Origin: Tardiphaga robiniae
GTDB taxonomy: Bacteria > Pseudomonadota > Alphaproteobacteria > Rhizobiales > Xanthobacteraceae
Direction: 5' to 3'
Length of the DNA: 64,000 bases
Assembly (NCBI RefSeq): GCF_001618955.1
Contig: NZ_LVYV01000001.1
Location: 751,501-815,500 of the forward strand
Below, in pieces: positions 3,522-19,791 of the stretch. How positions within the stretch are numbered: position 1 is the stretch's first letter; each line of letters starts with the position of its first letter. The notes under the pieces are model-generated. The model was not told the origin of the DNA. It did not search any database and worked only from the letters and a program-made list of their open reading frames with translations. Both the position numbers and the translations under genes were made by a program.

Positions 3522-3655
3522 CCGCGGTCTGCCGGAGGTATCTTCGGATGGAGCGAGGCGGCTTCGTCTCCCTCCCCCATTCGAGGTGGTGATCTATTTG
3601 TCGACCCCATGGTTCCACTTGTTGGCGATCAATTCCCGAACGGTTCGTGCTGCGG

Positions 3656-4126: not shown

Positions 4127-4160
4127 CTTGCTACTCCCAGCGGAATTTCAACAAGCCAGA

Positions 4161-5210: not shown

Positions 5211-5268
5211 TCGCCCATCTGACGACTGGTGGCTTTCATATCGCGACGGGGTCTGATTCAGCATCGGC

Positions 5269-5723
5269 ATGAGCCGATATGATCTGACCGACTTCGAGTG
5301 GCGCGCTTCCGGAAGCCGCCCCAACAAGCCCCGAGGCGTACCGCGCGTCGATGATCGCCGCGTGCTAAAATGGCATCTTCTGGGTGCTGCGGTCAGGTGC
5401 GCCTTGCCGTGACCTGCCCGATCGCTATGGCCCGCGCACCAACTGCTACAACCGCTTCAATCGATGGCGGCAGGCAGGCGTGTGGGATCGGCTGATGGAT
5501 GCCATCAGCGCCGCGCATGACGGGCAAATCCAGATGATCGACTGAGTTTCGTCCGAGCGCACCAGCAGGCTGCGACTGCAAAAAAGGGGGTCCAGATCAT
5601 TGTCTCGGTCGCTCCCGAGGCGGGCTCACGACCAAGATCCACGTCGTCGTCGACGCGCAAGGGCTCCCGATCCGGCTCGGCCTCACCGCAGGCAGACGCA
5701 CGACGGGCAGTTTGGACGCAAGC
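5269..5723 (+). pseudogene. Remnant of an IS5-family transposase
   Basis: The frame begins MSRYDLTDFEWR, the usual opening of IS5-family (IS427-like) transposases. Later frames give recognisable pieces: NKPRGVPRVDDRRVL, RYGPRTNCYNRFNRWRQAG, VWDRLMDAISAAHDGQ, RAHQQAATAKKG and TTKIHVVVDAQGLPIRLGLT. These are joined by several frameshifts, and the part carrying the rest of the DDE active site is missing, so the enzyme is dead. GGGTCTGATTCAGCATCGGC just before the ATG may be the left terminal repeat. A 24-base stretch at 5296-5319 differs from the usual family sequence and nearly matches repeat R1. Confidence 0.75.
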
Positions 5724-5959
5724 AATCTGAGAGAGCGAGAAATCTGAGAGAGCCAGCCATCGTATTTAATGCTGCGCATTAATCCGAACTGGTGAGGTGG
5801 GAGGCAAAGCCTCCCCCTCAACCCCCACCAAGCGATTTCACGCTGCCGTTCCGCCTCCGCGTTTAATCGCATGGCTTGTCGATCACATCGCGCCATTTCA
5901 AAGCATGGCTTGTCGACTTGTTTCATTCGCGCCGGCGATCACATCATTGCGGAGTCCCT
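5724..5959 (+). other. Candidate origin of transfer (oriT)
   Basis: This gene-free stretch directly precedes the mobilization operon. It holds AATCTGAGAGAGC twice (5724-5736, 5741-5753), an inverted repeat GGGAGGC-AAA-GCCTCCC (5799-5815) that extends outward as GGTGAGG/CCTCAACC, GCATGGCTTGTCGA twice (5869-5882, 5903-5916), and CGATCACATC twice (5880-5889, 5937-5946). Direct repeats plus a hairpin upstream of relaxase genes is how oriT regions usually look. No nic site was identified. Confidence 0.45.
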
Positions 5960-5979
5960 CAGATTAGGAGGTCTCCGCA

Positions 5980-6297
5980 ATGAACCTGAAACAGAGTCGC
6001 CGGGCCGACCCGGATATCCATTATCAACTGCCAGTCTCCGCTCATTACCGCGGCGAAAACCTTCCGGCCACGCTCATCGTTAAGCGGCGCGCGGATGGAA
6101 ATTTTTGGGAGGGACGACTTTTCGTCAACCCGGCCTTGCACATGACCGTGAATCAGACTGCGTCGCCTATTAATGGCGGGTTTAGTCACCTCTCCGATGA
6201 AGATTTCTTGGATCGGGTTCGCCTCGTTTTTGATTTTTGCGGCGGAGCGGAATTCGACTTCGTCTCCGACGATTATCGCCCGAGGAACCTGCAGTGA
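5980..6297 (+). CDS. First gene of the mobilization operon, unknown (105 aa)
   Basis: A small soluble protein of unrecognised family with a beta-rich centre (LPATLIVKRRADGNFWEGRL). A near-perfect Shine-Dalgarno sequence (TTAGGAGGT) lies eight bases upstream of the ATG. Its TGA overlaps the GTG of the MobC-like gene (GTGA at 6294-6297), so the two are translationally coupled. Placed directly after the candidate oriT, it may be a relaxosome accessory protein or an operon regulator; this is inferred from position only. Confidence 0.6.
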   Translation: MNLKQSRRADPDIHYQLPVSAHYRGENLPATLIVKRRADGNFWEGRLFVNPALHMTVNQTASPINGGFSHLSDEDFLDRVRLVFDFCGGAEFDFVSDDYRPRNLQ

Positions 6298-6692
6298 AGG
6301 GCTTTCGCTTCTTCGCATTCCGAGCCGACCCGGCGACCGGCACAGCGATCGAGGCCGCCGCAGCCGCAGCGAAAACCTCGTTGTCGAGCTGGATTCGTAA
6401 TGCGATTCGCGCCGCCCTTCCGGAAGGCGCATCCCTTCCGGCCTTGCCCCCATCTCCGCTCCGCCGCCGTGCGGCCGTCCCGGAAGCCGATGTCGCCGCC
6501 CTCGCCCGCTTGATGGCTGCCGTCAATCGGCTCAACGGCGCGATGATCCAGCTTTCGAAAGGACTTCGTGAAGCCGGACATGTTCCGGAACATCAGTCGA
6601 TGGAATCCGCGATCAGAGATGTCCGCGACATCAAAGCCGAGGGCGTCCGCCTTTTCAAATGTCTGCAAGCGCCGGAGGTTAGTCGTGGCTGA
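6294..6692 (+). CDS. MobC-like relaxosome accessory protein
   Basis: Begins VKGFRFFAFRADPATGTAIE, followed by an alanine-rich helix and SLSSWIRNAIRAAL, which fits a ribbon-helix-helix DNA-binding domain. The second half (AALARLMAAVNRLNGAMIQLSKGLRE) resembles the conserved helix of MobC-type proteins, which help the relaxase open oriT. The GTG at 6294 is chosen because it overlaps the preceding stop and starts the recognisable domain; longer frames upstream overlap the first gene. Its end overlaps the next gene's start by eight bases. Confidence 0.5.
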   Translation: MKGFRFFAFRADPATGTAIEAAAAAAKTSLSSWIRNAIRAALPEGASLPALPPSPLRRRAAVPEADVAALARLMAAVNRLNGAMIQLSKGLREAGHVPEHQSMESAIRDVRDIKAEGVRLFKCLQAPEVSRG

Positions 6693-7140
6693 TTTCGATG
6701 CCGAGCGACACGACCGAGCGCGCGTCGCCTGCCTTTTCTTAGGCGAGCCTGAACCTCCGACTCCGGTGAACGACGGTGCATATCTCGCGCCGTTCATCGC
6801 TTTCGCAGCCGTGAACACCTGGATTCATTGCGGCCGCCCTGGATCGCGTGAATTGCCGCGCGATCTGGCCGACGAATTCTGCGTTTATGCTGATCTGGCT
6901 GGCTGGCAAAACGAGCCGTACCTTGCCGGACTGCTTAGTGGTCTTGAGCATCCGGGATGGCACCCGAAGTCTGCCACCTTCAAAATCGACGCGAATCCGT
7001 ATCGCATCGAGGTGAATCGAAATTCTTTCGACAACGGTCGCATTTTCGCGAAGACCGACGCAGGGCAGCGTTACCGCGCATACGTTGCCGATTGCCGTAA
7101 AGATGCGGCGGCGTTTTCGTCGCACCTGAGGATTCCGTGA
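6685..7140 (+). CDS. Mobilization operon gene, unknown (151 aa)
   Basis: Start taken as the GTG at 6685, seven bases after a GGAGGT ribosome site; this gives VADFDAERHDRARVACLFLG. The protein is globular, with tryptophans and aromatic clusters (FIAFAAVNTWIHCGR, GLEHPGWHPKSATFKI) and no membrane segment. The stop overlaps the relaxase start. Stop/start overlaps on both sides show it belongs to the mob operon and is probably needed for DNA processing or transfer, but I do not recognise the family. Confidence 0.6.
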   Translation: MADFDAERHDRARVACLFLGEPEPPTPVNDGAYLAPFIAFAAVNTWIHCGRPGSRELPRDLADEFCVYADLAGWQNEPYLAGLLSGLEHPGWHPKSATFKIDANPYRIEVNRNSFDNGRIFAKTDAGQRYRAYVADCRKDAAAFSSHLRIP

Positions 7141-9269
7141 TGATCGCCGGCGCCACACGCGGAGCCGGCGGCCCCTCTCTTGCTCGACATCTCATGTCGC
7201 GCAAAGGCGGCCAGAACGTTGAGGTTATGCCCGCGCGACACTTGATGGGCGAAACGCTGCGGGAGCAGCTCGACGATCTCGTAATGACGTCAGCACACGG
7301 CCGGACGTCGCGTCCCGTCCATCACGTTCATATCGATCCGCCGCCTGACTGCGCTGATCCAGAAGCGGCCATTGAGACTTTCCTTAAGCACTACGAAGCC
7401 GAATTCGGCTTCGAAAATTCGCAACGTTGCGGCGTCTATCACACCAAGCACGGTCGTCGGCACGCACACGTCGTCTGGTCTCTTGTACGCGACGACGGCT
7501 CCGTTGTGTCACTTGCTCACGATCACGCGCGGCGGGAGAAAGTGTCGAGGATCGTTGAGTTCGAGCATGGCTTGCCGTTTACGAAGGGCAGGCACAACCG
7601 GAGCGCGGCGGCTGCGCTGCGCAAGGAAGGCCGCGCCGACGTCGCCACCGCTATGGAAGCCGCCGGACTCCTCGATGGGCGCCCCGGCATAGCGCATTCG
7701 ACGCCTCGTCAGCGGGCTCAGGCCGAACGCACGACGGTGCCGATTGATGAAATCAGATCGGATGCTTTGGCGGCGTGGAAAGCCTCTGACGACGCGAAGA
7801 GTTTCGCGATCGCGCTCCACGCTTTCGGCTCGATCGTTGCCACCGGTAACAAGGGCTTCGTGTTGGTCGATCGTTCCGGATCGACGCATTCTTTGAATCG
7901 CGTTCTCGCCGCTGCCGGCCGGCAGGCCGGCGAAGACCGCATCACAGCAGCCGCCGTCCGGAAGCGTCTCGCAGGAATCAATTTTCCAACCGTGGAGGAA
8001 GCCAAAAATGCCCGATCAAAGCGACGAAATTCTGAGCGAAGCGAAAGGCGCGCACCAGACGGCGCAGGAGCTTCTTCCCCTCCTGGATCTGTTGAACGAT
8101 CCGGAAGGCGTGAGCCCGCTCGACGAAATCAAGCATCTCTTGCAAGCGATTCTGGAGATCCTCGGTCATCACCAGACAGCACTTCAGCGCATCGAAAGTT
8201 CGTTCGCGAGCGTGCCGCCGCCATCGCACTGAGCACCATCGATCTACAAGCAATAAATACAACGCGGAGGGACGTCATGAAGTCTATCAAAGCCCAAGAC
8301 TACAAAGCGAAAATCCTCGCCGAGATCGCGCCGAAGGGATTCAACTCTCATGCTTTTGCGCTTGATTTGCGCATGATCAAGCAGCCTTCGCCAGGCAACT
8401 CGACGTCACGCATCATGACGACCGACGGTGGCTGGATCGAATACGATTCAGTCAGAAAATCTGTCCGCACGTGGGGGCCAGCCGGCCGCGCCCAAGTCCT
8501 TGCCGCCGCCCTCGCCCACGCCGTCGGCGTCGAGGTCGAACACCTGGCGAAAACGGCATCTGTCGGCGCCGACGCCGCCGCTCTCAAAGTCACCAAAGTC
8601 TCAGAAGATGCCGTGAAATCACTAGTCATTTGGTGGTCGATGCGGGGTTACTCCGCGACCGGCGGCCCGGACGGCTGTTGGATCACCGCGGGACACTCCC
8701 GGATTCGCGATACCGGCGACCTTCTCGAAATCCACGGCGGCCTGACGGACGAAGCCATCGCCGCAACGCTTGTGAAGGCTCGCGACGCATGGGGCGGCGG
8801 CGTGTACCTCTATGGACATTGGACCGAAGCGGAGCAGGATCGCATGTGGATCGCCGCGATGCGCGCAGGAATCGAAATTCAAAACTGCAATCCGTCTGAG
8901 TCAATTCAGAAAGCATGGCAGCGCGAACAGGAAGCTACCGCGAAGACGGCGAAAACGATTTCTGCCGTCCGAACAGAGGTCATCGAAGCTCAACGGCTAC
9001 TTGAGGCGGCAAAGGGCGATGTCGAATCCGCAAAAAAACTGCCGGGCAATTTACAAGCTTTTGTCGCCGTTTTTCTCGATGACGACCAGAGGCGCGAACT
9101 CGCTGCGCAACCAATTGCGGAGATCGTTCCTCAGCTTGAGCGCTTCCGGAAGCTCGGCACCACCGAACTCCAATCTTACGAAGCGCCTGCTGGTCAGAAA
9201 GTGGCTTTTGCCGAGCGCGAGAAAGACAAGCCGAGCGTCGGCCCGAGCGGCGCACATGCTCCCCAATGA
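7137..9269 (+). CDS. Relaxase (mobilization nuclease) with LPD7-like C-terminus
   Basis: This protein would nick the transferred strand at oriT and pilot it into the recipient. Two histidine clusters typical of HUH relaxases are present: HHVHIDPP at about residue 60 and HTKHGRRHAHVVW at about 101-113. The latter gives the metal-binding HxH. The C-terminal third (DEAIAATLVKARDAWGGGV, then WTEAEQDRMWIAAMRAGIEI) looks like the LPD7 domain found in many large relaxases. Between them lies a Ser/Arg/Pro-rich linker that overlaps a nested gene (8008-8232). Start is GTG 7137 or ATG 7140. An internal in-frame ATG at 8277 with its own ribosome site could yield a separate 330-residue C-terminal protein. 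Confidence 0.8.
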   Translation: MMIAGATRGAGGPSLARHLMSRKGGQNVEVMPARHLMGETLREQLDDLVMTSAHGRTSRPVHHVHIDPPPDCADPEAAIETFLKHYEAEFGFENSQRCGVYHTKHGRRHAHVVWSLVRDDGSVVSLAHDHARREKVSRIVEFEHGLPFTKGRHNRSAAAALRKEGRADVATAMEAAGLLDGRPGIAHSTPRQRAQAERTTVPIDEIRSDALAAWKASDDAKSFAIALHAFGSIVATGNKGFVLVDRSGSTHSLNRVLAAAGRQAGEDRITAAAVRKRLAGINFPTVEEAKNARSKRRNSERSERRAPDGAGASSPPGSVERSGRREPARRNQASLASDSGDPRSSPDSTSAHRKFVRERAAAIALSTIDLQAINTTRRDVMKSIKAQDYKAKILAEIAPKGFNSHAFALDLRMIKQPSPGNSTSRIMTTDGGWIEYDSVRKSVRTWGPAGRAQVLAAALAHAVGVEVEHLAKTASVGADAAALKVTKVSEDAVKSLVIWWSMRGYSATGGPDGCWITAGHSRIRDTGDLLEIHGGLTDEAIAATLVKARDAWGGGVYLYGHWTEAEQDRMWIAAMRAGIEIQNCNPSESIQKAWQREQEATAKTAKTISAVRTEVIEAQRLLEAAKGDVESAKKLPGNLQAFVAVFLDDDQRRELAAQPIAEIVPQLERFRKLGTTELQSYEAPAGQKVAFAEREKDKPSVGPSGAHAPQ
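8008..8232 (+). CDS. Small gene nested out of frame inside the relaxase gene (74 aa)
   Basis: A 74-residue acidic, helix-forming protein (MPDQSDEILSEAKGAHQTAQ...) lies in the +1 frame within the relaxase gene. A strong ribosome site (GGAGGAAG) is about seven bases upstream of its ATG. Across exactly this stretch the relaxase frame is low-complexity linker (RSKRRNSERSERRAPDGAG), as if that frame were free to drift while the nested one is conserved. Overlapping accessory genes inside a relaxase gene are known in RSF1010 (mobB within mobA). Family not recognised; a role in mobilization is inferred. Confidence 0.55.
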   Translation: MPDQSDEILSEAKGAHQTAQELLPLLDLLNDPEGVSPLDEIKHLLQAILEILGHHQTALQRIESSFASVPPPSH

Positions 9270-9712
9270 CAGTCGCCCCTCACGTCCTCCGGCGCTACAT
9301 CATCGGCAGCGCGGCCGGTCGATCACCGCATCTGGAATGGTCCTTCCTTTCGCAGGATATCGGCGCTTGGATTCTCGCCGATGAAGCCACGGCGCGGCGG
9401 CACGAGCACCATCGCCGCATCCGGATGGATGGGCGGCCATGGTGCCACGTGCTCGGTCATCGAACCGACGTCGCCGACGACGAGGCCTTGCAGGTTTATT
9501 TCCTGACGATCGCATCGGACGAATGGCCACGCCTCGCGATCGCCGTGATGCGCGCGCCGACGCGATGCTTGCGAGACTGGCGCGCTTCCGGAAGCCGCAT
9601 CATCGCCGCCGTTGACGCGACCGCAGCGCCTTCCGGAACGACATCATCGGGACCATTATCTGACTGGCCGAAATCACGCGGCACAGGACCAAGGTCAATG
9701 CTGCCGCAATGA
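9266..9712 (+). CDS. Last gene of the mobilization operon, unknown (148 aa)
   Basis: The ATG overlaps the relaxase stop (ATGA at 9266-9269). The protein starts MTVAPHVLRRYIIGSAAGRS, has an HEHHRRIRMDGRPWCHVLGH segment and ends GPLSDWPKSRGTGPRSMLPQ. Family not recognised. Its 3' third (from about 9522, IAVMRAPTRCL...) is the sequence that recurs three more times downstream as repeats R2-R4, each copy followed or preceded by cargo genes. This is the only full-length copy. Confidence 0.6.
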   Translation: MTVAPHVLRRYIIGSAAGRSPHLEWSFLSQDIGAWILADEATARRHEHHRRIRMDGRPWCHVLGHRTDVADDEALQVYFLTIASDEWPRLAIAVMRAPTRCLRDWRASGSRIIAAVDATAAPSGTTSSGPLSDWPKSRGTGPRSMLPQ

Positions 9713-9773
9713 AGGGGGTCATTTTCCGTAGGCAATCACCCCAGCCACATCGACGACCGCTCTAAAACCATGG
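9522..9773 (+). repeat. Dispersed repeat R1 (original 3' end of the mob operon)
   Basis: R1 covers the last 64 codons of the 9266-9712 gene plus about 60 bases beyond. It contains the conserved centre GCTGCCGC-ATGAAGGGGG (about 9700-9718) and the tail TTTTCCGTAGGCAATCACCC. The tail is about 90 % identical to that of R3. The left half is more distant from R2 and R3 (roughly 70 %). The amidohydrolase gene ends 12 bases after R1. Confidence 0.8.
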
Positions 9774-9784
9774 CTATCGCGATA

Positions 9785-10555
9785 TCAAGCGAGTTCCTTC
9801 ACATAACAGGGATAGCTTTTCTGCTTCTCTTTGACCAAGGCAATATCGAGCTCGACCACCGCGAGCGGTTTTTCCGGAGAGGTCATGTCGATTAAGTCTC
9901 CATTAGGACCGCACGCAAAACCTTTGCCTCCAAACGTCGGCCCATTTGATCCTGATCCCACGCGGTTGGAACTTACGACATAACAGCCTGAAACAATCGA
10001 GGCCATCTCGCCTGCAGTTTGAAAAACCTTCACGGCTCTTCCCGTGGCTCTCGGGACAACGATCAACTCCGCGCCTTGTTTACGATAATGGCGAGCATGT
10101 TCATTGAACATCACTTCCGTGCAGAGAAGTACCCCTACGGATACACCGCAAATTACGACCGGTTCGAATTCGTGCGACAGTGTCGCGTACCAATTCGTCT
10201 CATACCAGCCAAACTCTGCAGGAAAATATTGCTTTGTATGGAGGTGTTTTATTAGTCCCCCTTCAAGGCAGAAGGCTTCATTAGCAAGCCGCTTCCCTTC
10301 CCACACTGGCCGAGAAGAAATGATCGCCGGGATATTTAGCCTTTCGAGTGCCGCCGCGCCGGCGCGATGACACTGAATACTGTGTTCAGCCATTCGAGGA
10401 TCGAAATCCGGAGTTGATGCAATCCAGGGGCCGAAAGGCAATTCATTCGTTACCAATATATCGACATTGGCCTTGGAGAGATTCTCCGCCAAACTAAGCC
10501 ATTGGTCGCTGTCGGCAATCAAGTTTTCGGGCCACTCAACAAATCCTACGCGCAT
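9785..10555 (-). CDS. Nitrilase-superfamily carbon-nitrogen hydrolase
   Basis: A 256-residue amidohydrolase with the Glu-Lys-Cys triad of the nitrilase superfamily: E38 (in TNELPFGPW), K108 (in HLHTKQYFP) and C145 (in GVLLCTEVMFNEHARHY). Members cleave amide or nitrile bonds; the C-terminal strands (GKGFACGPNGDLID) fit the aliphatic-amidase / N-carbamoylase / omega-amidase type. The substrate cannot be told. GGGGAGGAC upstream of the ATG is a good ribosome site. It is cytoplasmic, with no signal peptide. It is the sole gene between repeats R1 and R2 and points against the mob operon, which marks it as inserted cargo. Confidence 0.85.
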   Translation of the reverse strand: MRVGFVEWPENLIADSDQWLSLAENLSKANVDILVTNELPFGPWIASTPDFDPRMAEHSIQCHRAGAAALERLNIPAIISSRPVWEGKRLANEAFCLEGGLIKHLHTKQYFPAEFGWYETNWYATLSHEFEPVVICGVSVGVLLCTEVMFNEHARHYRKQGAELIVVPRATGRAVKVFQTAGEMASIVSGCYVVSSNRVGSGSNGPTFGGKGFACGPNGDLIDMTSPEKPLAVVELDIALVKEKQKSYPCYVKELA

Positions 10556-11210
10556 CGCCTGTCCTCCCCATGTCGTGCGTCGGTGTTATATGAGGATGTA
10601 TGTCGTTTGCCAGTAAGAACGTCGCACCCTTTCTCTATATGGCCCCGTTTAGATATGAAGCCAAAGCGACACTGTGGTCGCACCTCTCGATCGCCGTCAT
10701 GCGCCGCCCTTCCCGATGCCTCCTTGAGTGGCGCGCGGCCGGCGCGCGCATCATCGCAACCGTTTCCGGGACGACGCCCGCTTCCGGAACGGGACCGCTC
10801 TCCGACTGGCCCAAAGCACGCGGCACCGGCCCCCGCTCATTGCTGCCGCGTTAATTGAAGGGGCGTTTTCTTTCCCGGCAGGCAAACACCCGTGCCCCCC
10901 CTCGCCGAGGCCATAAAACCCACATGCAAACGCGTCGGATTTTGGCAGCCCCCTGCCCTAATTTCAAAATTCCGTGCTATGCGGGCTTAGGGCTGAGTTT
11001 GCGCGCGCCTCTGGATTGGGAGAGTTACGAGGCAGCCAGTCGGCCGAGACTGGCGATTGTTGCACCACCGGTCGAGCATGGTTATTGTCGCTTGTCTGCG
11101 TGACTGGCGAGAACAGGATGGGGCACCATCATGGAGCGCAGACACATTCTGGCCGTTCGCCTGGGCCGCCGATGTAATCGGCACATCCGTAAGTTCGGAG
11201 CCCATAGGTC
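10556..11210. other. Intergenic stretch holding R2 and a long leader
   Basis: This 655-base stretch has no convincing gene. Bases 10556-10672 separate the amidohydrolase start from R2, and 10925-11210 lead into the AICAR-transformylase-like gene. A short frame at 11131 overlaps that gene out of phase and is not supported. I looked for a riboswitch in the 286-base leader and recognised none. Confidence 0.5.
10673..10924 (+). repeat. Dispersed repeat R2
   Basis: Partial copy of the R1 sequence, reading in frame as LSIAVMRRPSRCLLEWRAAG to GPLSDWPKARGTGPRSLLPR. The centre is GCTGCCGCGTTAATTGAAGGGG (10842 onward). The left half is about 94 % identical to R3 over some 80 bases. The right half (TTTCCCGGCAGGCAAACA) is closest to R4. 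About 290 bases of gene-free leader follow before the next cargo gene. Confidence 0.8.
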
Positions 11211-12398
11211 ATGGTCAAATCTAATTTCGATTCAATCCAACTCCGCTACGGTCTCAACCCAAATCAGGCGTTCGCTGAAATACGGGTCGAGCAACCGTCC
11301 CCGCTTGCTGTTCTCTCAGGATCACCGAGTTACATAAATTTCTTGGACGCTTTACGAGGCTGGAGACTGGTAAAGGAGTTGCGGGACCGATTTGGATTGC
11401 CTGCAGCGGCTTCCTACAAGCACGTCAATCCGGCAGGGGTTGGACTAGGAGACGGAAGCCTTGATGAAACATATAGGCAAGCTCATTTTCTCCCTGACTG
11501 GAATCTTTCGCCACTGGCCATCGCATACATCAGGGCGCGCCAAGCCGACCGCATCTCGTCGTATGGCGACTTCATTTCCCTGAGTGATCCCGTTGATGTC
11601 GCAACTGCTCTTGTCATAAAGGACGTGGCATCGGATGGCGTGATTGCGCCAGCTTATGACCCTGAAGCTCTGCGAATTCTACGTGGAAAACGTTCGGGTC
11701 GGTTTCTCGTACTGAGCATTGATCCAAGCTACGAGCCCGTCGGTGTTGAGGCTAAAGACGAGTTCGGTGTCACTCTTCTTCAGGATTACGACGCTTCCAA
11801 CATTCCGGAAATCTCCGCGGCTCGGATCGTGACTGCAAGATCTTTCACGAGCGCTAAGGCAAGCCGTGGGCTTACATTGGCAATGATCGTGGCGAAACAT
11901 ACCCAATCCAACGCGATCTGTGTTGCCTTTGGCGATCACACCCTCGGAATTGGGGCGGGTCAGCAGTCTCGTATCGCCGCGACGAGGCTCGCCTGCGATA
12001 AGGCAGAGATTTATCTGTTGTACGACCATCCAAAAGTTCGGGATCTGCACTTTCAGCAAAACCTTAGCCGAATGGAGAAGATGAACATCGTTGATCTGTT
12101 TTTGCGTTTCGATTCGCTTTCGGACGAGGAGCGCGCTGCGGTGCAGGAAAGGCTACGATCTGCGCCTTCGCCGATCGGCCCCGAGGAGAAGGCGACTTGG
12201 ATCAAACAGAAAGGTCCAGTTGTTCTTGCGTCTGACGCCGCGATTCCCTTTCGCGATAATTTGGATCGCGCGGCAAGAACCTCGATTACTCATATCGTAC
12301 AGAGCGGCGGCTCGAAGCGCGATCCGGAGGTCACGATCGCCGCCGATCAATACGGCATGGTGATGTTTCATACTGGCGTGAGGCACTTCCTACATTAG
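11211..12398 (+). CDS. Stand-alone AICAR transformylase-like protein (PurH C-terminal domain)
   Basis: Resembles the formyltransferase half of PurH, which turns AICAR into FAICAR with 10-formyl-tetrahydrofolate. Seen: LRYGLNPNQAFAEI near the start, YKHVNPAGVGLG, SLSDPVDVATA, SDGVIAPAYDPEAL, KHTQSNAICVAFGDHTLGIG, GAGQQSRIAATRLACDKAE, SDAAIPFRDNLDRAA and YGMVMFHTGVRHFLH at the end. The KH and PFRDN-type motifs match catalytic regions of the family. The IMP cyclohydrolase (MGS-like) domain is absent. At 395 residues it equals known single-domain versions. The gene sits alone between R2 and R3, away from other purine genes. It may back up purH or act on a related imidazole substrate. Confidence 0.85.
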   Translation: MVKSNFDSIQLRYGLNPNQAFAEIRVEQPSPLAVLSGSPSYINFLDALRGWRLVKELRDRFGLPAAASYKHVNPAGVGLGDGSLDETYRQAHFLPDWNLSPLAIAYIRARQADRISSYGDFISLSDPVDVATALVIKDVASDGVIAPAYDPEALRILRGKRSGRFLVLSIDPSYEPVGVEAKDEFGVTLLQDYDASNIPEISAARIVTARSFTSAKASRGLTLAMIVAKHTQSNAICVAFGDHTLGIGAGQQSRIAATRLACDKAEIYLLYDHPKVRDLHFQQNLSRMEKMNIVDLFLRFDSLSDEERAAVQERLRSAPSPIGPEEKATWIKQKGPVVLASDAAIPFRDNLDRAARTSITHIVQSGGSKRDPEVTIAADQYGMVMFHTGVRHFLH

Positions 12399-12418
12399 AC
12401 GCTGACAAGCCCGAGCGG

Positions 12419-12631
12419 GTTCCCGATGCCACCTTGAGTGGCGCGCGGCCAGCACGCGCATCATCGCAAGCGTTTCCGGAACGACGCCCGCTTCCGGAAC
12501 GTCGGGACCGCTCTTAGACCGAAGGCGCGCGGCACGGGACCACGCTCTATGCTGCCGCGTTGAATGAAGGGGGGCATTTTCCGTAGGCAATCACCCCAGT
12601 TACATCGACGATCGCTCCAAACCACCGCGTG
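12419..12631 (+). repeat. Dispersed repeat R3 (mosaic)
   Basis: The left half (from TTCCCGATGCC) is nearly identical to R2, and the right half (ATGAAGGGGGGCATTTTCCG onward) to R1, with the switch in or near GCTGCCGCGTTGAATGAAGG at 12551. The frame is disrupted by TAG (in CTCTTAGACC), so it no longer encodes the mob protein tail. The AICAR-transformylase-like gene ends about 20 bases before it, and fabA ends 9 bases after it. Confidence 0.8.
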
Positions 12632-12639
12632 TTTATATC

Positions 12640-13170
12640 TCAGATCGCGGACGTTATCAGGCCTACCCTCATGCCTTCGGCAATGTAGACGCATCTGTCA
12701 TCAGCAAGAACGCGGCCGTCCGCGATGCCTAGAACCAGTTTGCCCCGCCTAACCTGGCGCATATCAATCTCATAGCGAACGCATTTAGTATCTGGCGTGA
12801 TATGCCCTTTGAACTTCACCTCACCGACGCCAAGAGCGCGGCCTTTCCCCGGCGAGCCCGACCAGCCGAGCCAAAAGCCGATGATCTGCCACATGGCGTC
12901 CACCCCCAGACACCCCGGCATCACTGGGTCGCCAGAAAAGTGGCAGTTAAAAAACCAGAGGCTCGGCTCAATATCCAACTCACCGGTGACATGGCCCTTT
13001 CCGAATTCGCCGCCGTCCACGCTGATCTTGGTGATGCGGTCCATCATCAGCATAGGCGGTGCTGGCAGCTGCGCATTGCCTGGGCCAAAATAGCCGCCTC
13101 TGCTTGATTTGAGCAGGTCCTCCTTTGTGTAAGACGATTGCGGAGCATGATAATCGTGAGGATTGGACAA
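12640..13170 (-). CDS. fabA: 3-hydroxydecanoyl-ACP dehydratase/isomerase FabA
   Basis: A hot-dog-fold dehydratase that makes trans-2 and cis-3-decenoyl-ACP, the branch point to unsaturated fatty acids. [20 protein letters not shown] carries the catalytic histidine (H77) and aspartate (D91). Length (176) and spacing match typical FabA. Translation appears to start at TTG 13170, giving [20 protein letters not shown], which matches FabA N-termini. No fabB partner is present, so this is probably a second, accessory copy. It forms a pair with the upstream tetR gene, 42 bases apart, which suggests regulation by that repressor. Confidence 0.9.
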
Positions 13171-13212
13171 GATAACATGACCTTTGATGATGTGCGGGGC
13201 TTTTACTGAACG

Positions 13213-13836
13213 TCAGGCGACCTTGTTGCGATTGCTTACTCTGGCGTTCGAGTTCCTGTTCAGGCGTAGTGCAGCAGCAATGAAGGCCCAGATGTCGCTC
13301 GTCAATTTCTCTGGATTGGGCCGCCTTTTGCGCATTAGGGCGCCGATCAGTGCTTGGCGAATTCCACCGATCATCAGTGCAATGGTGAGGTGAGGATCGA
13401 CGTCATCAGGAACGATGCCGTCACGCTGGGCATCCTGAAGCATGAGTGCACCCGCAGCGAGCTGTCGGTTGGTAAAGGCTATCTCGACATCCAATACTTC
13501 AGACGCGCGGCTCAATGCCCCGATCACAAGGGGAGCAAAGGGGTGGTCATAGTGAAACGCGACATATGCGGCTATCCGCGCTCTCTCTCTGTGCACCCAG
13601 CTTTCCGAGGACAGCTTCGCGCCACTGAAAGCTGCCTCATCAAGGCGCCTATAGAATTCCTCAACAACTGCGGCGATCAAACCGGCCTTCGATCCGAAGT
13701 GGTGATAGGCTAACCCAACTGAAACCCGTGCGCGCTTTGCGACGGCCTGCATCTCCAAGTGTCCTTGGCTTTGAACCAGTTCCTCTTGAGCCGCGCAGAT
13801 CAGTCTTTCTCGCGTCCCGACACCCTTAGCGGCCAT
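13213..13836 (-). CDS. TetR-family transcriptional regulator
   Basis: The N-terminal domain (TRERLICAAQEELVQSQGHLE, then VAKRARVSVGLAYHHFGSKAGLIAAVV) is a TetR helix-turn-helix. The C-terminal part is helical, as usual for ligand-binding domains. I choose ATG 13836, preceded by GAGGG, rather than an in-frame TTG at 13869, because the longer start would place a palindromic operator inside the coding region. The gene is directly upstream of fabA on the same strand. By analogy with other TetR-type lipid regulators it may sense acyl-CoA and control fabA; that link is inference. Confidence 0.85.
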   Translation of the reverse strand: MAAKGVGTRERLICAAQEELVQSQGHLEMQAVAKRARVSVGLAYHHFGSKAGLIAAVVEEFYRRLDEAAFSGAKLSSESWVHRERARIAAYVAFHYDHPFAPLVIGALSRASEVLDVEIAFTNRQLAAGALMLQDAQRDGIVPDDVDPHLTIALMIGGIRQALIGALMRKRRPNPEKLTSDIWAFIAAALRLNRNSNARVSNRNKVA

Positions 13837-13854
13837 CTTGCCCTCGATCTTTAA

Positions 13855-13874
13855 TTGAACTGAATTCAATTCAA
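13855..13874. promoter_or_regulatory. Probable TetR operator palindrome
   Basis: TTGAACTGAATTCAATTCAA is a 20-base palindrome with a single mismatched pair, 19 bases upstream of the chosen tetR start. Its position fits autorepression of the tetR-fabA pair. Confidence 0.55.
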
Positions 13875-13924
13875 GATCGAAGGCATGTCAAGTCCACGGT
13901 GAGATCAGCGAGTGAACCGAACAA

Positions 13925-14082
13925 TGTTTCCGATCGCGGCAGGCACCCGGATCGCCCGGTCCGCTGTCTAGATGACCCACAGCACGCGGTGAGCGATGCT
14001 GCCGCGTTAAATGGATGGGGGTCTTTTCCCGGCAGGCAAACATCCACGCCATCTCGACGAAGGCCAAAAAACCACCGCTTGA
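13925..14082 (+). repeat. Dispersed repeat R4
   Basis: The most degraded left half of the set, recognisable from TTTCCGATCGCGG through CACAGCACGCGGTGAGC to the centre GCTGCCGCGTTAAATGGATG (13998 onward). The right half (TTTTCCCGGCAGGCAAACA) is close to R2. Here the right half runs on into a longer open frame, suggesting this is the original sequence that followed the mob operon before cargo entered. Confidence 0.7.
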
Positions 14083-14353
14083 GGCCTTCGAATTGTGGCA
14101 GACCGTTGCCAGAGCTATTGAAATCGATGCTTTTGGCGCTTTCCTTCGCATCGCTCGCCCCTTTCCCTCGAACTGGCACACCGACGTGCCGGGCGGCCTT
14201 GCGGGCCTCGCAAAGGGGGCCGTGGCTCAGTCGCTCCGCTCCCTGCGCCCGCACCGAGTCCCCCTTGCGCCGCCGCACCGGCGCGGCAGCCCGGTCTTAG
14301 GGCGAGCGACGCGAAGGGAAAGAGATCACCGTTCGGGCGGAGTCCGCTGCTGA
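14015..14353 (+). CDS. Hypothetical frame starting inside R4 (112 aa)
   Basis: Begins MGVFSRQANIHAISTKAKKP and continues PLEAFELWQTVARAIEIDAF. The opening peptide (KG.F.SRQAN) also occurs after the centre of R2 and, altered, after R1 and R3, so this may be the start of the ancestral gene downstream of the mob operon. The second half becomes arginine- and proline-rich, which suggests decay or a frameshift. A real gene of unknown function or a remnant; coding status uncertain. Confidence 0.35.
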   Translation: MGVFSRQANIHAISTKAKKPPLEAFELWQTVARAIEIDAFGAFLRIARPFPSNWHTDVPGGLAGLAKGAVAQSLRSLRPHRVPLAPPHRRGSPVLGRATRRERDHRSGGVRC

Positions 14354-14445
14354 CGCAGCGAGCCTTCCGGAAGGAAGAAGGGGCTCGCTCCGCTCAAGGA
14401 AAGGCGGTCCAATCAAATCCACCGAGGCTAACGATACTTGCTACC

Positions 14446-15453
14446 TCACTTTGCCAACACAGTGCCGCTGGCGAGGTGATGTCTAAAAAACCTTACCACG
14501 TCGACGTTGAACTGCCTGTGGAACGCTTCCCGGTCGAATCCCGATGGATCGGAGCAAAAAAGTGGCTTGCTTGCTGCAAACTCTGGCGAGCACGGCGGCA
14601 GAAAGGCAAAGTGACCGGCCGATACAACGTGAGCTTCAGGGTTTCCAGGAACGTCATTCAGCACTCGCGAGACGCCACTTGGATCAACACCTCGTTCCTT
14701 TGCACCGAGTTCGGAGCGCCAAGTCTGAATCGGGATCGAGATCGCCGCAAGGGTATCCTTTGTGAACGCGACGGTAGGCGCAGGATCGACCAACACAGCG
14801 GCCTTGATCCGATGATCCTGCGGTAGATTGCGAGGGACGTCACCACTATTGACCTGCTCGCAGAACCGACTCTTGTTGTTACAATTGGAGGCGCCCCTCT
14901 GGAAGTCGAGGGTTGCACCGACAAGAACCAATCCCGTATAGCCGCCTTTCGAAAAGCCGAAGAAGCCAATTTTCTCAGGATCGATCGCGGTATGATCCTT
15001 CCAATCGTTCAACATGAAGTCGAACGCGCGGACGACGTCCTGCGGGCGTGACACCCAATTCGATAGACCCTCACTTGGTGAAGAATCGTAACCGCTATCG
15101 CCGGGATGATTGATGGCTACGACGATAAACCCAGCATCAGCCAACGTCTCAGCTGTATCGTGATGTCCGGCAAACCATCCACCGGTGCCATGAGAGATAA
15201 GGACCAGCGGATGTTTCCTTTTTGACACCGGGCAATCTCGGACGCCTCGGAGTTGATCAGCGGCCGGCAGCGCCAGTTTGCCCAATTCGACAGGCGCAGG
15301 GGTGCCGTCGCACGGATACCAAATGCCTCCCGAAATCTGTGGACCGCGGTCCAGGAGCTGGATCCCAGCAGCCTGGCCCGAAATTGTCGAAAGGCAGAAT
15401 AGAACTAGGCACGTGGCAACTTGGGATAACCGCAACACAACCTCCCCAAACAA
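14446..15453 (-). CDS. Secreted alpha/beta hydrolase (dienelactone-hydrolase / PAF-acetylhydrolase type)
   Basis: An N-terminal signal peptide (hydrophobic VATCLVLFCLSTIS, cleavage near GQAAG) precedes an alpha/beta hydrolase. LISHGTGGWFAGH is the oxyanion-hole strand, GFFGFSKGG the nucleophile elbow with the catalytic serine, DPAPT a candidate acid region and SAGHFAF the catalytic histidine. Such periplasmic enzymes cleave esters; the substrate is unknown. Paired cysteines suggest disulfides, fitting export. It lies after R4 on the minus strand and could be the last cargo gene, although no further repeat copy was found on its other side (15454-15698). Confidence 0.8.
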   Translation of the reverse strand: MFGEVVLRLSQVATCLVLFCLSTISGQAAGIQLLDRGPQISGGIWYPCDGTPAPVELGKLALPAADQLRGVRDCPVSKRKHPLVLISHGTGGWFAGHHDTAETLADAGFIVVAINHPGDSGYDSSPSEGLSNWVSRPQDVVRAFDFMLNDWKDHTAIDPEKIGFFGFSKGGYTGLVLVGATLDFQRGASNCNNKSRFCEQVNSGDVPRNLPQDHRIKAAVLVDPAPTVAFTKDTLAAISIPIQTWRSELGAKERGVDPSGVSRVLNDVPGNPEAHVVSAGHFAFLPPCSPEFAASKPLFCSDPSGFDREAFHRQFNVDVVRFFRHHLASGTVLAK

Positions 15454-15698
15454 CTTCGGGCCATTCAGCTAGTCGCTGCTGAACGAAGTCAACGGCCAAA
15501 TAGCATGCCGACGATCGTGATTGCTGTCACATATTATCCTGAGATCACAAGCTCAGACCCCAGGGCTTCCCATACCGGATGGCGACCACCGTCTTCGCGG
15601 CCGGCATCAATCCCGACTGGCTTTAGGAAAGTGTGTCCGTTCGCAACGACCCTCTAACGCGGGAATCCCTCATCCCGACACTGTACGGGCTCTTGTCG

Positions 15699-16438
15699 TC
15701 AGTATTCCCAGACCACTTCAGTCGCCAAGAAATTGTAAAGTACGGTGCGCACCGTCATCAGTCCGACTTGGACTGTGAGGTAGCGATAGACGTTTTCCTG
15801 AACGATCACCCATCCATTCTGGTTCAAATCCGAACCAGTCGCTAGGCGATTCATCATTCGGCATCCGACCTCCGGCCAAATTCCGGTCGAGTCCCATCCA
15901 CTTTCGAACCGGTCGCGTTCGTCACCCTTTAGGTGTTCAAGCGCACCCACCCAGACCGACGCAGGGTCATTCATCATTGGCTCGCCCATTTCATAGAATG
16001 CGTGGCCGCGAGCGTTCTTCACGACCACCCGTTGAATTCGCTCTATGTCTGGCTTCCAGACGAGACGGCTCTCCCCCGCTATCGTCGTGTAACTGCTTGA
16101 ACGTTGAATGAGAGCCTGCAAATGCTCGCTCTTCGCGAGGATGCGCCGTGCGCTGGGAATGATTTGCTTTTCCGGTGCAGTCGTCCCGCTGATCGCGGAG
16201 CTTAGGGATGCGACCATATAGGCCTCACTTTCGAAAACCCGTTGTTGCATTCGATGCAGGCGGGAATCATTGGCAGATTTTCGGGGCGAGGTTCCTGCAG
16301 GAAGCTCTGTGATGGCGCATGATCACGGTTAGTCGTTAGATCGACGAGCAGGCCTCGGCAATAAAGGCACCAACTTTTGTGACGTTTGTCGGCGAAGTCT
16401 TCGATCTTCTCCATAGCCACTCCGACAACGCGACTCAT
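15699..16438 (-). pseudogene. HNH-endonuclease-like gene with a frameshift
   Basis: The first frame (from 16438) has CLYCRG, NRDHAPSQSF and LPMIPACIECNNGFS: two CxxC pairs plus DHxPS, as in HNH/recombination-endonuclease-type zinc domains. After NNGFS it shifts and stops. The next frame carries on with ESEAYMVASLSSAISG..., the usual continuation (CNNGxSxxEAY) and about 170 further residues. Adding one base within TTTTCGAAAG (near 16218) joins the two into one protein of about 245 residues. This could be a real inactivating deletion or a sequencing error. Such proteins are common in defence or mobile DNA; the role here is unknown. Confidence 0.7.
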
Positions 16439-16631
16439 TTGTCTATCTTAGGCATTGCGCCTCGATCCGTCCTACCAGTGGCCTGCGCAGGCCCCTCAGG
16501 CGAGGCATCCAGCGGTCCAGGCTCGTCGGCATGAGAAATCTATCGGTCGGACAAACGCGGGCCTTTCTGTTCGCGAGAACGTAGAGACAATTGCACTGAC
16601 GGCTATCCTAACATGCCGAGTTTGTCGTTCT

Positions 16632-16826
16632 TCACAGGCTTTCCTCCATCCACATGCCCGACAAACGGACGACGGCGGTGGCGTACGCGTCTGACATGCC
16701 GTAGCGCTGGGTCAATCGGCGGACTGCAAGCGGCACAGCGTTCAGCACGGGTGCGGGGCCACGGTCGAAGTGCGGCTGTCCAGAGATCGGATGACAGATG
16801 CGGGGGTGGGTAGTAGATTTGTTCAC
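16632..16826 (-). CDS. Small hypothetical protein near the integrase (64 aa)
   Basis: Start taken as GTG 16826 with AGGAG eight bases upstream, giving VNKSTTHPRICHPISGQPHF and ending in an amphipathic helix (LAVRRLTQRYGMSDAYATAV). An in-frame start at 16904 would add 26 residues that look like leader translation. Family not recognised. It is transcribed in the same direction as the AlpA-like gene 75 bases upstream and may share its promoter. Confidence 0.5.
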   Translation of the reverse strand: MNKSTTHPRICHPISGQPHFDRGPAPVLNAVPLAVRRLTQRYGMSDAYATAVVRLSGMWMEESL

Positions 16827-16900
16827 GTTAAAGACTCCTGAGAGCCCGGCCGCTTTCCTGCCACGGAAAACCAGCGCGCCGGGTTTTCTATTGGGGGAAA

Positions 16901-17161
16901 TCAAGCGACCCGACGCGTGTGCTCAGAGGTCGAGCGAACAAGCGGCCCGATCTTGCTGCGAGCCCATGCGTCGAGGCCGTTCTGCGGGTAAAGGGGAATG
17001 CGGCCCGCAATCCGGAAGGGAGGGCCGTTCGAACTGACGCAGGCAAGCTTTGCGAGCGTGTTCGGCGAGCACGGGAAACCGTAGGTATCCGTGACGTATT
17101 TCGCGGCTTCTTTGCGCCGCATCAGCCGGGCGGCACCGCCGCTATCTTGATCAATGGCCAT
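16901..17161 (-). CDS. AlpA/Xis-like helix-turn-helix protein
   Basis: An 86-residue protein with RLMRRKEAAKYVTDTYGFPC followed by SPNTLAKLACVSSNGPPFRI and a short wing (GRIPLYPQNGLDAWARSKIG). This is the layout of the MerR-like winged helix used by AlpA and recombination directionality factors. Close to a tyrosine integrase, its likely role is to bend att DNA for excision or to regulate the integrase. A 13-base-pair inverted repeat lies just upstream of its start. Assignment is from fold and position. Confidence 0.65.
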   Translation of the reverse strand: MAIDQDSGGAARLMRRKEAAKYVTDTYGFPCSPNTLAKLACVSSNGPPFRIAGRIPLYPQNGLDAWARSKIGPLVRSTSEHTRRVA

Positions 17162-17166
17162 CTAGT

Positions 17167-17199
17167 CCTCGCAATTTGGGGCAATTCCCAAATGCGAGG
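17167..17199. promoter_or_regulatory. Inverted repeat upstream of the Xis-like gene
   Basis: Arms CCTCGCAATTTGGG (17167-17180) and CCCAAATGCGAGG (17187-17199) pair over 13 bases with one bulged A, separated by GCAATT. It sits six bases before the AlpA/Xis-like start codon, a good place for an operator or a recombination-protein site. Confidence 0.5.
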
Positions 17200-17263
17200 A
17201 AGCCAGATCACGGCCGGATCTGTCCGCCGATAACGTGGATAAACTGATGAGAACCGGTTTCCA

Positions 17264-18223
17264 TCAGTTTTCAGCAAACTCCTTCAGCCATTTCGTGGAT
17301 CGACCACGAACAGTAGAGTCTTCGGGGTGCTGATCAAATCGCCGGGCAAACTCCACTTTGATGGCCTCGGCGAATTGCGATTTGCTCGGAAAGTAAGTAT
17401 TACCTTTCCCAGGAAGCCCTTTCAATCGCACCATCTCGCGTGCGACCTCCTTCATCTCATCCCATTTGAATTCCTGCGGACGGCCGCCCCTATCTGGCTC
17501 TACCGTGACCGTCGCCGGACGGCTATTTGCTGGCCAGAGCTTCATCAGGTCAGCCCGCATGAACCTCACCTCATTGTAAGCGAACTGCCCCGCAGTCTTG
17601 CGATAGTAGAGCTCCCCTTTTTCGTTCACCTCGATATGCGTCCACTTGAACGCTTCGATCTCGACCGGACACCCTAAACCGCTCTCTGCTCCGATGGCTG
17701 TTAACCGACCTTCGACAAGTGCATTTTTGAGAAGCGCGTCTGCTGACTTAACCGTTACAACCAATCGTGCAGCGGTGGCGGTCTCCATCACGGTCAATAT
17801 TCGACCGTTCATTGGCGCATCAGCCTGGAAGACGTGTCTATCAACTTGCCCTGACGGCGGAAATCTTCGCCTGAGAGGCGAAGTTGTATCATTGCGTGGA
17901 ACAAAGCTCGCTTTTATCGAGTAGCGCCAGCAGTTTGCTCGATATTCGTCGCAGCACTTCCGAACGTCGCTCGGGTTTCGCCAAGCAATCCACGCGAGCA
18001 CCATGAACCACGACCATGCTGGCATCGCCATCGGGTCAAATTCATCGGCGCTCGGCTCTTTGTCATAAGCGAGATAATGGTCGAGCAATTCTTGCTCTGC
18101 GTTTGGATCTGAATGATCAGGTTCATAATCCGGTTGAGCGCCCTCGTCCTCCGGCGCCGGCCAGGTGTAGGGCTCGCCGTCCGGCTCATGACCCTCGTAA
18201 TCTGTCGGTGGTGTCTTGCCCAT
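17264..18223 (-). CDS. Hypothetical protein adjoining the integrase (319 aa)
   Basis: Start taken as ATG 18223 (MGKTPPTDYEGHEPDGEPYT) rather than 18322, because the longer frame runs back over the integrase end with arginine-rich sequence. The N-terminal 70 residues are acidic and disordered. AMPAWSWFMVLAWIAWRNPS is hydrophobic but tryptophan-rich, and the rest is globular (EVRFMRADLMKLWP, then a C-terminal basic helix region). Proteins of this layout are, from memory, frequent beside integrases in bradyrhizobial islands. Function unknown. Confidence 0.65.
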   Translation of the reverse strand: MGKTPPTDYEGHEPDGEPYTWPAPEDEGAQPDYEPDHSDPNAEQELLDHYLAYDKEPSADEFDPMAMPAWSWFMVLAWIAWRNPSDVRKCCDEYRANCWRYSIKASFVPRNDTTSPLRRRFPPSGQVDRHVFQADAPMNGRILTVMETATAARLVVTVKSADALLKNALVEGRLTAIGAESGLGCPVEIEAFKWTHIEVNEKGELYYRKTAGQFAYNEVRFMRADLMKLWPANSRPATVTVEPDRGGRPQEFKWDEMKEVAREMVRLKGLPGKGNTYFPSKSQFAEAIKVEFARRFDQHPEDSTVRGRSTKWLKEFAEN

Positions 18224-18318
18224 AATTGCCCTGCCGCATGGAGCATCCGCAGAGTGACGACGCGGCAGGCTGGTGCGGACCAGCTTTTTGGGAACTACCC
18301 TAGCCGCGCCGAACTTGA

Positions 18319-19587
18319 TCAAGCCGTCCGGAGTTGGATCACTTCGCTGTCCTTCCGACCGGTCATTGAATTGTCGATGTGCCGCGCGATTCGATCGGCT
18401 GCGGCGACGAGCGCCGAGTCGATCTTATGGATGTATCCTTCTGTCACACTTGATCGAGCGTGGCCCACCAGCGCTTTGATTGTTGGTAAAGAGAATCCAA
18501 GGTCTTCGGCAGTTGAGCTGAAGGAATGACGGAGGCCATGGCAGGTGATGCCTGGCACATCCTTGGCTGACACCTTTTGAAGCCACCGCGTGAGGCCGGT
18601 GTGGTGCTTGCTTTCCGAAGTTATCGCCGGGAAGACAAACTTCGATTTGGATTTGACCGAAGCGGCCTTGAGCAGGGCGATGACAGCGGAGCCTACCGGC
18701 CGAATGCTCTTGCCGGTCTTTGTGTCGCCGAGGCGAAGCGCCATGCCGACCGCATCTACTTGGGTTTTGAGCAGCCCCTCAATCTCATCCAAGCGGCATC
18801 CGGTCAGGGCCGCAGCCTTGCTAGCCATGATCGGCTGCCAATGCTCGCCGTTTGCCTCAGCTATCGCAAGACAGTTGCCCAGCCGCCGATAGCCGTCGTC
18901 GTCAAGCCGCCACTCGCGGGTGCTGTCTTTCGGCCTGACGATGCCGTGAATCGGATTGTCCGGCCGGTATCCCTCGCCGACCGCATAGCTGAAGATGCCG
19001 CCCAATAGGCCCATGGTCCGAGACGCCGTGCCTTTGCCGCCGGTGACGATGGCCCGGCCGCGCAGCTTGGTCTTTACGTCAGCGGCCGACTTCCCGGCAA
19101 TCACATCACGCTGGAAGCGTCCCGCGTCAGATGTGGTGAAATCTTTGACGGTGCGCTTGCCAATCAGAGGGACAATGTGACGGGCAACACGCCCCTTGTC
19201 CGTGTAGATCGTGGACTCGCTTTTGGCCTTGCCCGTCCGCGTGAGGATCAAGCCCTTCTCAGCCTCGTCCATGTATTCGGCGGCCAGCTCTTCGATCGTC
19301 ATGGCGCCGCGGGCCAGTTTCCGGCTCTCGGCAGGATCTGAGCCCTTCACGACCTCAGCCAGCGCCAGCTTTGCCGCCTTCCGTGCCTCTTCCACCGTTA
19401 GGACGCCATAGCGCCCGACGGTGAGCCGCCGGCTCCGGCCATTGGCATTGCGATACTGGACGATGAAGGATTTAGCGCCGCTGGATTTTGCCCGGAGACC
19501 GAAGCCTGGCAGTTCGTCATCCCACAGAACCAACTCGCCCTCGGTAGGCTTGATCGCGTCCACGGTCCGCTTCGTCAACTTGGTCAT
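18319..19587 (-). CDS. int: Tyrosine recombinase (integrase) of the element
   Basis: Catalyses integration and excision at the tRNA-Arg site. The N-terminal arm-binding domain (LTKRTVDAIKPTEGELVLWD, then LPGFGLRAKSSGAKSFIVQY) is of the P4/DUF4102 type. The catalytic set is complete: R265 in TGCRLDEIEGL, H350 and R353 in CHGLRHSFSS, H376 in LVGHARSSV and Y385 in TEGYIH. At 422 residues it matches the family. ATG 19587 is preferred over the adjacent TTG. Two GGGTAAGCA arm-like sites lie just upstream, so the integrase may repress its own promoter. Confidence 0.93.
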   Translation of the reverse strand: MTKLTKRTVDAIKPTEGELVLWDDELPGFGLRAKSSGAKSFIVQYRNANGRSRRLTVGRYGVLTVEEARKAAKLALAEVVKGSDPAESRKLARGAMTIEELAAEYMDEAEKGLILTRTGKAKSESTIYTDKGRVARHIVPLIGKRTVKDFTTSDAGRFQRDVIAGKSAADVKTKLRGRAIVTGGKGTASRTMGLLGGIFSYAVGEGYRPDNPIHGIVRPKDSTREWRLDDDGYRRLGNCLAIAEANGEHWQPIMASKAAALTGCRLDEIEGLLKTQVDAVGMALRLGDTKTGKSIRPVGSAVIALLKAASVKSKSKFVFPAITSESKHHTGLTRWLQKVSAKDVPGITCHGLRHSFSSTAEDLGFSLPTIKALVGHARSSVTEGYIHKIDSALVAAADRIARHIDNSMTGRKDSEVIQLRTA

Positions 19588-19596
19588 CAAATCCTC

Positions 19597-19723: not shown

Positions 19724-19739
19724 CGGGAAAACACGACAC

Positions 19740-19791
19740 CTTTGCCCTCCGAAGGCAAAGGTCACACGTTCGAATCGTGTCGGGTGCGCCA
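19740..19791 (+). other. attR: Attachment site: 3' part of a tRNA-Arg(CCG) gene
   Basis: The anticodon arm TTGCC-CTCCGAA-GGCAA (anticodon CCG at 19749-19751), variable loop AGGTC, T arm ACACG-TTCGAAT-CGTGT, 3' acceptor strand CGGGTGC, discriminator G and CCA are all present. The matching GCACCCG acceptor strand and D arm are missing upstream. Only the 3' portion is therefore here, the usual duplicated core left by a tRNA-targeting integrase. The complete tRNA is expected at the other end of the element, left of the window. Confidence 0.75.

Follow-up and report, generated by a model that had tools for sequence, protein, structure and literature searches.

The analysed stretch of DNA (the window: 64,000 nucleotides of the Tardiphaga robiniae contig NZ_LVYV01000001.1, G000:C1:751501-815500) carries four direct repeats, R1 to R4, behind the mobilization (mob) operon of an integrative mobilizable element (IME). 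The repeats lie inside this element of about 25.6 kb, which is inserted in a tRNA-Arg gene. They separate three sets of cargo genes and derive from the end of p148, the last gene of the mob operon. The array probably consists of mob-operon tails of several related IMEs, stacked up by sequential displacement. In the following, G000 is the own genome, other genomes are likewise numbered with a G and loci with an L; the genome set contains one genome per species.

Structure of the array

p148 is conserved as the final gene of the mob operon, and the cargo behind it varies; its protein of 148 amino acids had no match in Pfam or NCBIfam. The features of the array in window coordinates are:

9266..9712, plus strand: p148, the intact gene that closes the mob operon, with R1 as its 3' part; it follows the relaxase gene in relatives too
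9524..9775, plus strand: R1, the 3' end of intact p148 and about 60 nt (from profile and tiling)
9785..10555, minus strand: cargo 1, carbon-nitrogen hydrolase (CN-hydrolase; PF00795)
10666..10988, plus strand: R2, p148 tail from residue ~86 with the frame open to its own stop, running on into native downstream sequence
11090..11173, plus strand: ZMP/ZTP riboswitch, part of cargo 2 (RF01750, 66.3 bits against a gathering threshold of 39, E 1.5e-8)
11211..12398, plus strand: cargo 2, standalone AICAR transformylase (NF005492, 456 bits against a cut-off of 415)
12420..12631, plus strand: R3, p148 tail that starts at residue ~96 and has a 4-nt gap; it resembles R2 on the left and R1 on the right
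12640..13170, minus strand: cargo 3a, fabA (TIGR01749, 266.6 bits against a cut-off of 238)
13213..13869, minus strand: cargo 3b, TetR-family regulator (PF00440)
13926..14141, plus strand: R4, the tail with the greatest decay, which passes without a break into the native downstream block
14086..14406, no strand assigned: conserved downstream block with inverted repeats (72-73% to G121 and G044, 66% to G618)

A preliminary description had reported four copies of the 3' end of the last mob gene plus the following ~60 bases. All four are present, at a level well above chance; their lengths differ, and R4 is mostly without coding part. In a tiling control with 130 overlapping 300-nt tiles (window 1-19800, plus strand) all 27 direct non-self matches with E<=1e-4 fell among R1-R4, the best E values per pair being 1.7e-42 for R2/R3, 9.4e-32 for R1/R2, 4.9e-30 for R1/R3 and 2.1e-15 for R2/R4. 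On a profile of 262 positions the copies span 2-259 (R1), 9-259 (R2), 45-257 (R3) and 110-262 (R4). The mutual match of R2 and R4 reaches further right, to 10988 and 14141, respectively.

In the alignment R1 is the one copy attached to an intact gene, and the extra copies are 5'-truncated. R2 is still open, R3 has its gap of 4 nt and R4 is worst preserved, i.e. decay increases downstream over the three extra copies. Past the p148 stop, about 60-75 nt (window 9713-9775) with AAAACCACCGC at their end show conservation between elements that have only ~50% protein identity. R1 and R3 both break off at the end of this post-stop stretch (profile 259 and 257). As described before, cargo genes stop on one side near a repeat edge: the CN-hydrolase at 9785 (R1 edge at ~9771-9775), the AICAR transformylase at 12398 (R3 edge at ~12420) and fabA at 12640 (R3 edge at ~12624-12631).

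The frame of 112 amino acids (14015-14353) named in the preliminary description lies inside the downstream block and may be no true gene. Inverted-repeat arms are found at 14140-14160/14300-14320, and the fold of 14100-14410 has a z of -1.77. Such a block with inverted repeats stands behind p148 in several elements (window 14086-14406, L040 11410-11657, L038 2325-2575). A further copy occurs in G196 and an inverted one near the left end of G121; the second copy in G196 is ambiguous, since G121 also holds the inverted copy.

The tails derive from different p148 genes

Genome G618, which belongs to a family different from that of the window, contains a second array with an intact p148 and one truncated tail. 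Over 60 codons R1 and R2 differ by a synonymous divergence (pS) of 0.46 and a non-synonymous divergence (pN) of 0.21 (Fisher p 0.0014); for the G618 pair pS is 0.52 and pN 0.23 over 45 codons (p 0.0014). This pattern indicates that both pairs diverged as working genes under purifying selection. Since pN lies below pS, the tails of these two pairs go back to other p148 genes that were functional at one time, and not to local duplications; the copies in both pairs stem from different donors.

R3 is by its composition a recombinant. Its left part agrees with R2 at 69/74 positions (93%) and its part after the stop with R1 at 51/57 positions (89%); in the same parts R1 and R2 are 69% and 60% identical. 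When triplets were shuffled, the placement of R3 between R2 and R1 reached the floor of p 5e-5, with none of 20,000 shuffles attaining the observed value. Altogether four of 13 triplet tests were at this floor. The identity of R2 and R3 drops stepwise, from 91/100 over R2 10666-10804 to 19/25, 21/25, 17/25, 10/25 (10888-10914) and 9/22, as expected if the left part of the recipient remained in both copies after a crossover inside the repeat. R2 and the left part of R3 (pS 0.04, pN 0.07 over 26 codons) appear to have split recently and without sign of constraint, over too few codons for proof.

These data bear on the proposal that each insertion copied a few hundred bases of its target, as by a transposon with long target duplications or by repair. 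One cargo is bracketed by each pair of repeats, and the left parts of R2 and R3 are nearly alike, as local duplication would have it. It does not fit the divergence of the R1/R2 and G618 pairs under coding constraint, and R1-left is as distant from R2 as from G121 (both 69%). As noted in the preliminary description, no transposase was recognised among the open reading frames (ORFs) of the array, and terminal inverted repeats were not evident at the cargo ends; a transposon or translocatable unit is not indicated there. Local duplication is therefore very unlikely.

An independent array and empty loci in relatives

G618 shows the same layout independently of the window. Its order is intact p148, downstream block, a gene of 506 amino acids, truncated tail, a gene of 332 amino acids and 5'-truncated yifB. 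The second tail was found by DNA (E 1.9e-20) and by protein (E 3.6e-12, residues 105-151), and the intact copy takes the leftmost place in either array. The relaxase of G618 has another Pfam nuclease domain, MobA_MobL, and the same LPD7 domain. It is this locus that holds other cargo between copies, for which a check had been suggested. The search of its family gave 1/18, G618 itself. 5'-truncated yifB was observed downstream of the p148 operon in G618 (L139 13738-14691) and in G196 (L040 11709-12623); in addition to tRNA-Ser and tRNA-Arg, these elements may thus use yifB for insertion.

Matches to p148 with E<=0.001, the own genome counted, were obtained in 5/18 genomes of the genus, 20/391 of the family and 7/397 of the order. 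Weak ones in G142, G070, G131, G065 and G024 (family) and in G603, G442 and G586 (order) are probably chance by alignment. In G121 and in G044, a member of the same family as the window (order Hyphomicrobiales), relaxase, p148, R4-type tail and block follow one another directly. This empty arrangement, with a single uninterrupted copy, agrees with the earlier suggestion that R1-left was ancestrally joined to R4-right. Other cargo behind p148 comprises HsdR in G121, a PADLOC phospholipase effector in G044 and the PDC-S06 candidate defence protein in G073. The site behind p148 is therefore the cargo bay of this element family. The break of p148 at residue 85 in G016 is due to insertion of an IS701 transposase, which interrupts the gene there but not in the window.

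When 16 p148 loci were compared with their own downstream DNA (less than 5 kb each for L041 and L019), extra direct copies with E<1e-5 occurred only in the window (three) and in G618 (one). A plus-strand copy in L038, weak with an E of 0.001, was taken as chance, being beyond the right end of that element, and two minus-strand matches in L139 (E 2e-5 and 0.008) were taken as GC-rich noise. A scan of 296 family genomes with the repeat profile gave a match with E<=0.01 in 52, own genome included, most of them weak. The repeat was also considered as a mobile solo module: of six further loci inspected, none was kept as a solo copy. The match in G004 was read as a decayed form of the G009 locus, since the downstream gene is the same, and those in G098, G150, G006, G185 and G169 were read as chance, with no p148-element gene nearby. 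The tail-like match in G098 (L134 7569-7776, 51.6 bits) lies 12 nt past a tRNA-Met.

Lone p148 tails stand among unrelated genes in G013 (L020 405-700) and G002 (L021 9903-10045) and are probably remnants of past IMEs. The tail in G002 is 2.6 kb from a tRNA-Arg. That in G013 lies ~180 nt past a tRNA-like 3' end, which was read by eye; ARAGORN found no tRNA in L020. Outside the genomes searched by genus, family and order, p148 and repeat searches gave one weak record among plasmids, none in 63 candidate stretches of viral contigs, and 0/36 and then 1/18 in further genome contigs (Rhodopseudomonas pentothenatexigens); a profile search at class level gave 1/376, the own genome only.

Sequential displacement and tandem accretion

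For arrays of immunity genes of the type VI secretion system (T6SS) in Vibrio cholerae, sequential displacement is the published model (PMC5361080): a fragment anchors by homology, joins illegitimately at its other end, and the old 3' tail and downstream gene are pushed back. According to the same paper, a like proposal exists for Rhs loci, and the authors remark on the likeness to integrons.

Applied to the IME, the incoming DNA would consist of a mob-operon end and new cargo. Its left end would enter by homologous recombination in the conserved mob operon, its right end by illegitimate joining inside the resident p148 tail. The newcomer would complete p148, and the old tail with its old cargo would be shifted downstream. 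This process may be called sequential displacement by homology-facilitated illegitimate recombination. fabA-tetR would have been gained first, then the riboswitch-AICAR transformylase unit (with the crossover inside the repeat) and last the CN-hydrolase. The arrival of each cargo with a homologous left and an illegitimate right end is what we infer here.

The model predicts an intact copy on the left, 5'-truncated older copies, diverse donors, decay with distance, and shared left with different right parts. All five occur in the window and the first three also in G618; in both, an intact anchor stands upstream of 5'-truncated older 3' ends (R1 against R2-R4 in the window).

Several points weigh against sequential displacement. 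No donor arrays were found in the genomes searched, nor were the parents of the CN|R2, AICAR|R3 and tetR|R4 joints, which are illegitimate in the model. Intermediate arrays in other strains are likewise missing, the genomes searched having shown nothing beyond empty and decayed loci and a single independent array. Microhomology sits at R1|CN, a joint made in the donor under the model. The right parts of R1 and R3 are 89% alike and their left parts 62%, for which a further exchange is needed. In three of the triplet tests p stayed above 0.05 (0.058, 0.099 and 0.099), and 26 codons are insufficient as proof that R2/R3 lost constraint. Finally, homology-facilitated illegitimate recombination in Escherichia coli conjugation is put at 3e-10 per recipient in PMC3240628; the events are therefore rare and would need selection or time.

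The main rival, which would account for most of the facts, is tandem accretion of related IMEs side by side at the tRNA gene, followed by deletions from behind a cargo into the next p148. IME tandems with decay are documented (PMC5704250). That the tails derive from functional genes suits this explanation, as do the lone tails near tRNA genes in G013 and G002. It requires four deletions, three in the window and one in G618, each of which would have begun shortly after a cargo and stopped in the second half of p148. The intervals between the cargoes yielded neither a recognised integrase ORF nor a copy, 15 nt or longer, of the tRNA-Arg end, and the shared left and different right parts of R2 and R3 do not follow without extra steps. 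We consider accretion with deletion rather unlikely, and sequential displacement the probable origin of the array.

The repeats as recombination sites

The preliminary description had likened the layout to integron cassettes or translocatable units. Integron cassette arrays have one gene package per repeat, with the newest adjoining the anchor, and the array in the IME is alike in these respects. In a cassette system the repeat would be a recombination site, and circles of cargo plus repeat would enter at the p148-linked copy via a recombinase or relaxase. Growth at the first site and chimeric repeat copies are compatible with this, and the conservation of the post-stop stretch goes beyond the protein, with R1 and R3 ending there. 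Two close pairs have a tail that is synonymously less diverged than the part upstream of it (G121/G044, 0.28 vs 0.49; G196/G036, 0.57 vs 0.76).

However, the sum of 55 pairs gives 0.67 for the tail and 0.69 upstream, and G073/G023 is reversed (0.74 vs 0.38). An overlapping DNA constraint on the tail was thus rejected, with none in the sum and single pairs mixed. The left edges vary, lying at residue ~86 in R2, ~96 in R3 and further on in R4, and R2 and R4 continue to the right, so that constant edges at a structured site were not found. Folding of R2 as single-stranded DNA was no better than that of shuffles (z +1.09), and no attC-like fold was found. The only recombinase recognised is the integrase of the element, 8.6 kb from the first site, where no dedicated one stands. 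In contrast to integron arrays, the repeat is the end of a coding gene. The integron-like reading gives way to 5'-truncated tails of other p148 genes, and a cassette system appears improbable.

A role of the repeat as origin of transfer (oriT) is not supported: a scan with a nic motif gave no match in any copy, though none either in the block beside mobC (5739-5914), and oriT was not located. There is a small chance that the p148 tail and post-stop stretch form a recombination site on which recombinases or relaxases of the elements act in trans. This chance remains because the conserved post-stop stretch at which R1 and R3 end has no other account. If true, the elements would take up cargo packages singly behind the mob operon, much as integrons do, and this in at least two families of Hyphomicrobiales.

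Relation to known arrays

As in the T6SS arrays (PMC5361080), the IME has a conserved upstream homologous anchor, a new module behind it, a displaced truncated old 3' end and donors of different lineage. Unlike there, the anchor is a mob operon, the retained genes are metabolic and each cargo keeps its preceding tail. Rhs loci with orphaned 3' regions, cited in the same paper, share a constant 5' gene with displaced 3' parts downstream; their tails are variable, whereas here the tail is constant and the cargo unrelated. In tandem accretion of IMEs, integrative and conjugative elements (ICEs) and cis-mobilizable elements (CIMEs; PMC5704250), a composite island likewise forms from related elements at one target gene. 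In accretion the elements meet at att sites; the joints of the present array fall within the last mob gene, with no internal att copy found.

Among the open-access matches listed, no title or abstract dealt with such arrays in IMEs. The idea of a so far undescribed way to collect genes at the end of a mob operon stands in so far as the site is the cargo place of the family. The published displacement model suffices without dedicated machinery.

Cargo genes and the mobile element

The first cargo, described before as an amidohydrolase, is a CN_hydrolase by Pfam. The captured segment comprises ~9762-10660, and relatives of the gene are 92% identical in G016 and 86.5% on a Rhizobium plasmid; the stretches fetched around these two gave no match to the p148-tail profile. 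The R1|CN joint has TAAAACCA in common with the G016 sequence, which is the microhomology mentioned above.

The AICAR-transformylase-like gene was correctly recognised, with the correction that a ZTP riboswitch precedes it. The riboswitch stands directly 5' of the standalone transformylase (window 11090-12398), and the literature search on ZTP riboswitch and purH gave nothing relevant among the matches listed. At E<=1e-30 the transformylase was found in 1/61 relatives, that one being the own genome. The best plasmid-borne relatives share 37-48%; most are from Priestia and from Firmicutes or Bacteroidetes of the gut. Genus g25 likewise has the fabA-tetR pair, with 12 spanning matches at 73-78%, five of them aligned.

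Further features of the element are:

5739..5914, no strand assigned: conserved block on the upstream side of mobC, a purely positional oriT candidate (66% to G121 and G044, E 4e-12)
7137..9269, plus strand: relaxase, MobA/VirD2-type, with an LPD7 domain near the C-terminus (PF03432, E 3.7e-12; PF18821, E 1e-6)
18319..19590, minus strand: tyrosine integrase of the element (PF13356, PF00589)
19739..19791, plus strand: attR, a copy of the tRNA-Arg 3' half (sequence match to the intact tRNA-Arg)

The intact tRNA-Arg is located at -5890 to -5814 relative to the window and its 3'-half copy at ~19739-19791, a distance of 25.6 kb. The element has an integrase and an att duplication at its target gene, as an IME does. 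The name IME was chosen since relaxase and tyrosine integrase are present and inspection of ORF lists by eye (first 24 kb of the window; L106 14100-20000) revealed no gene of a type IV secretion system (T4SS), no dedicated T4SS search having been run. An ORF on the opposite strand overlaps the block beside mobC.

An int-alpA RNA is located beside the integrase gene (window 18246-18310, minus strand). The left end of the element, L106 14410-19600, contains in a row a Vsr endonuclease, two cytosine methyltransferases, a HATPase protein and a Methyltransf_35 protein, likely a restriction or defence set.

Implications

The array places a known mode of gene-array formation in a new setting, of which G618 is a second and independent case. 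On the displacement reading cargo can be added to a mobilizable island with no transposon or integron in sight, the conserved mob-operon end serving as homologous anchor. The displaced tails would then be a readable history of earlier cargo, with its order, the donor lineages and one internal crossover. If such arrays are common, counts of displaced mob-gene tails could order cargo gains in islands that carry no other marks.

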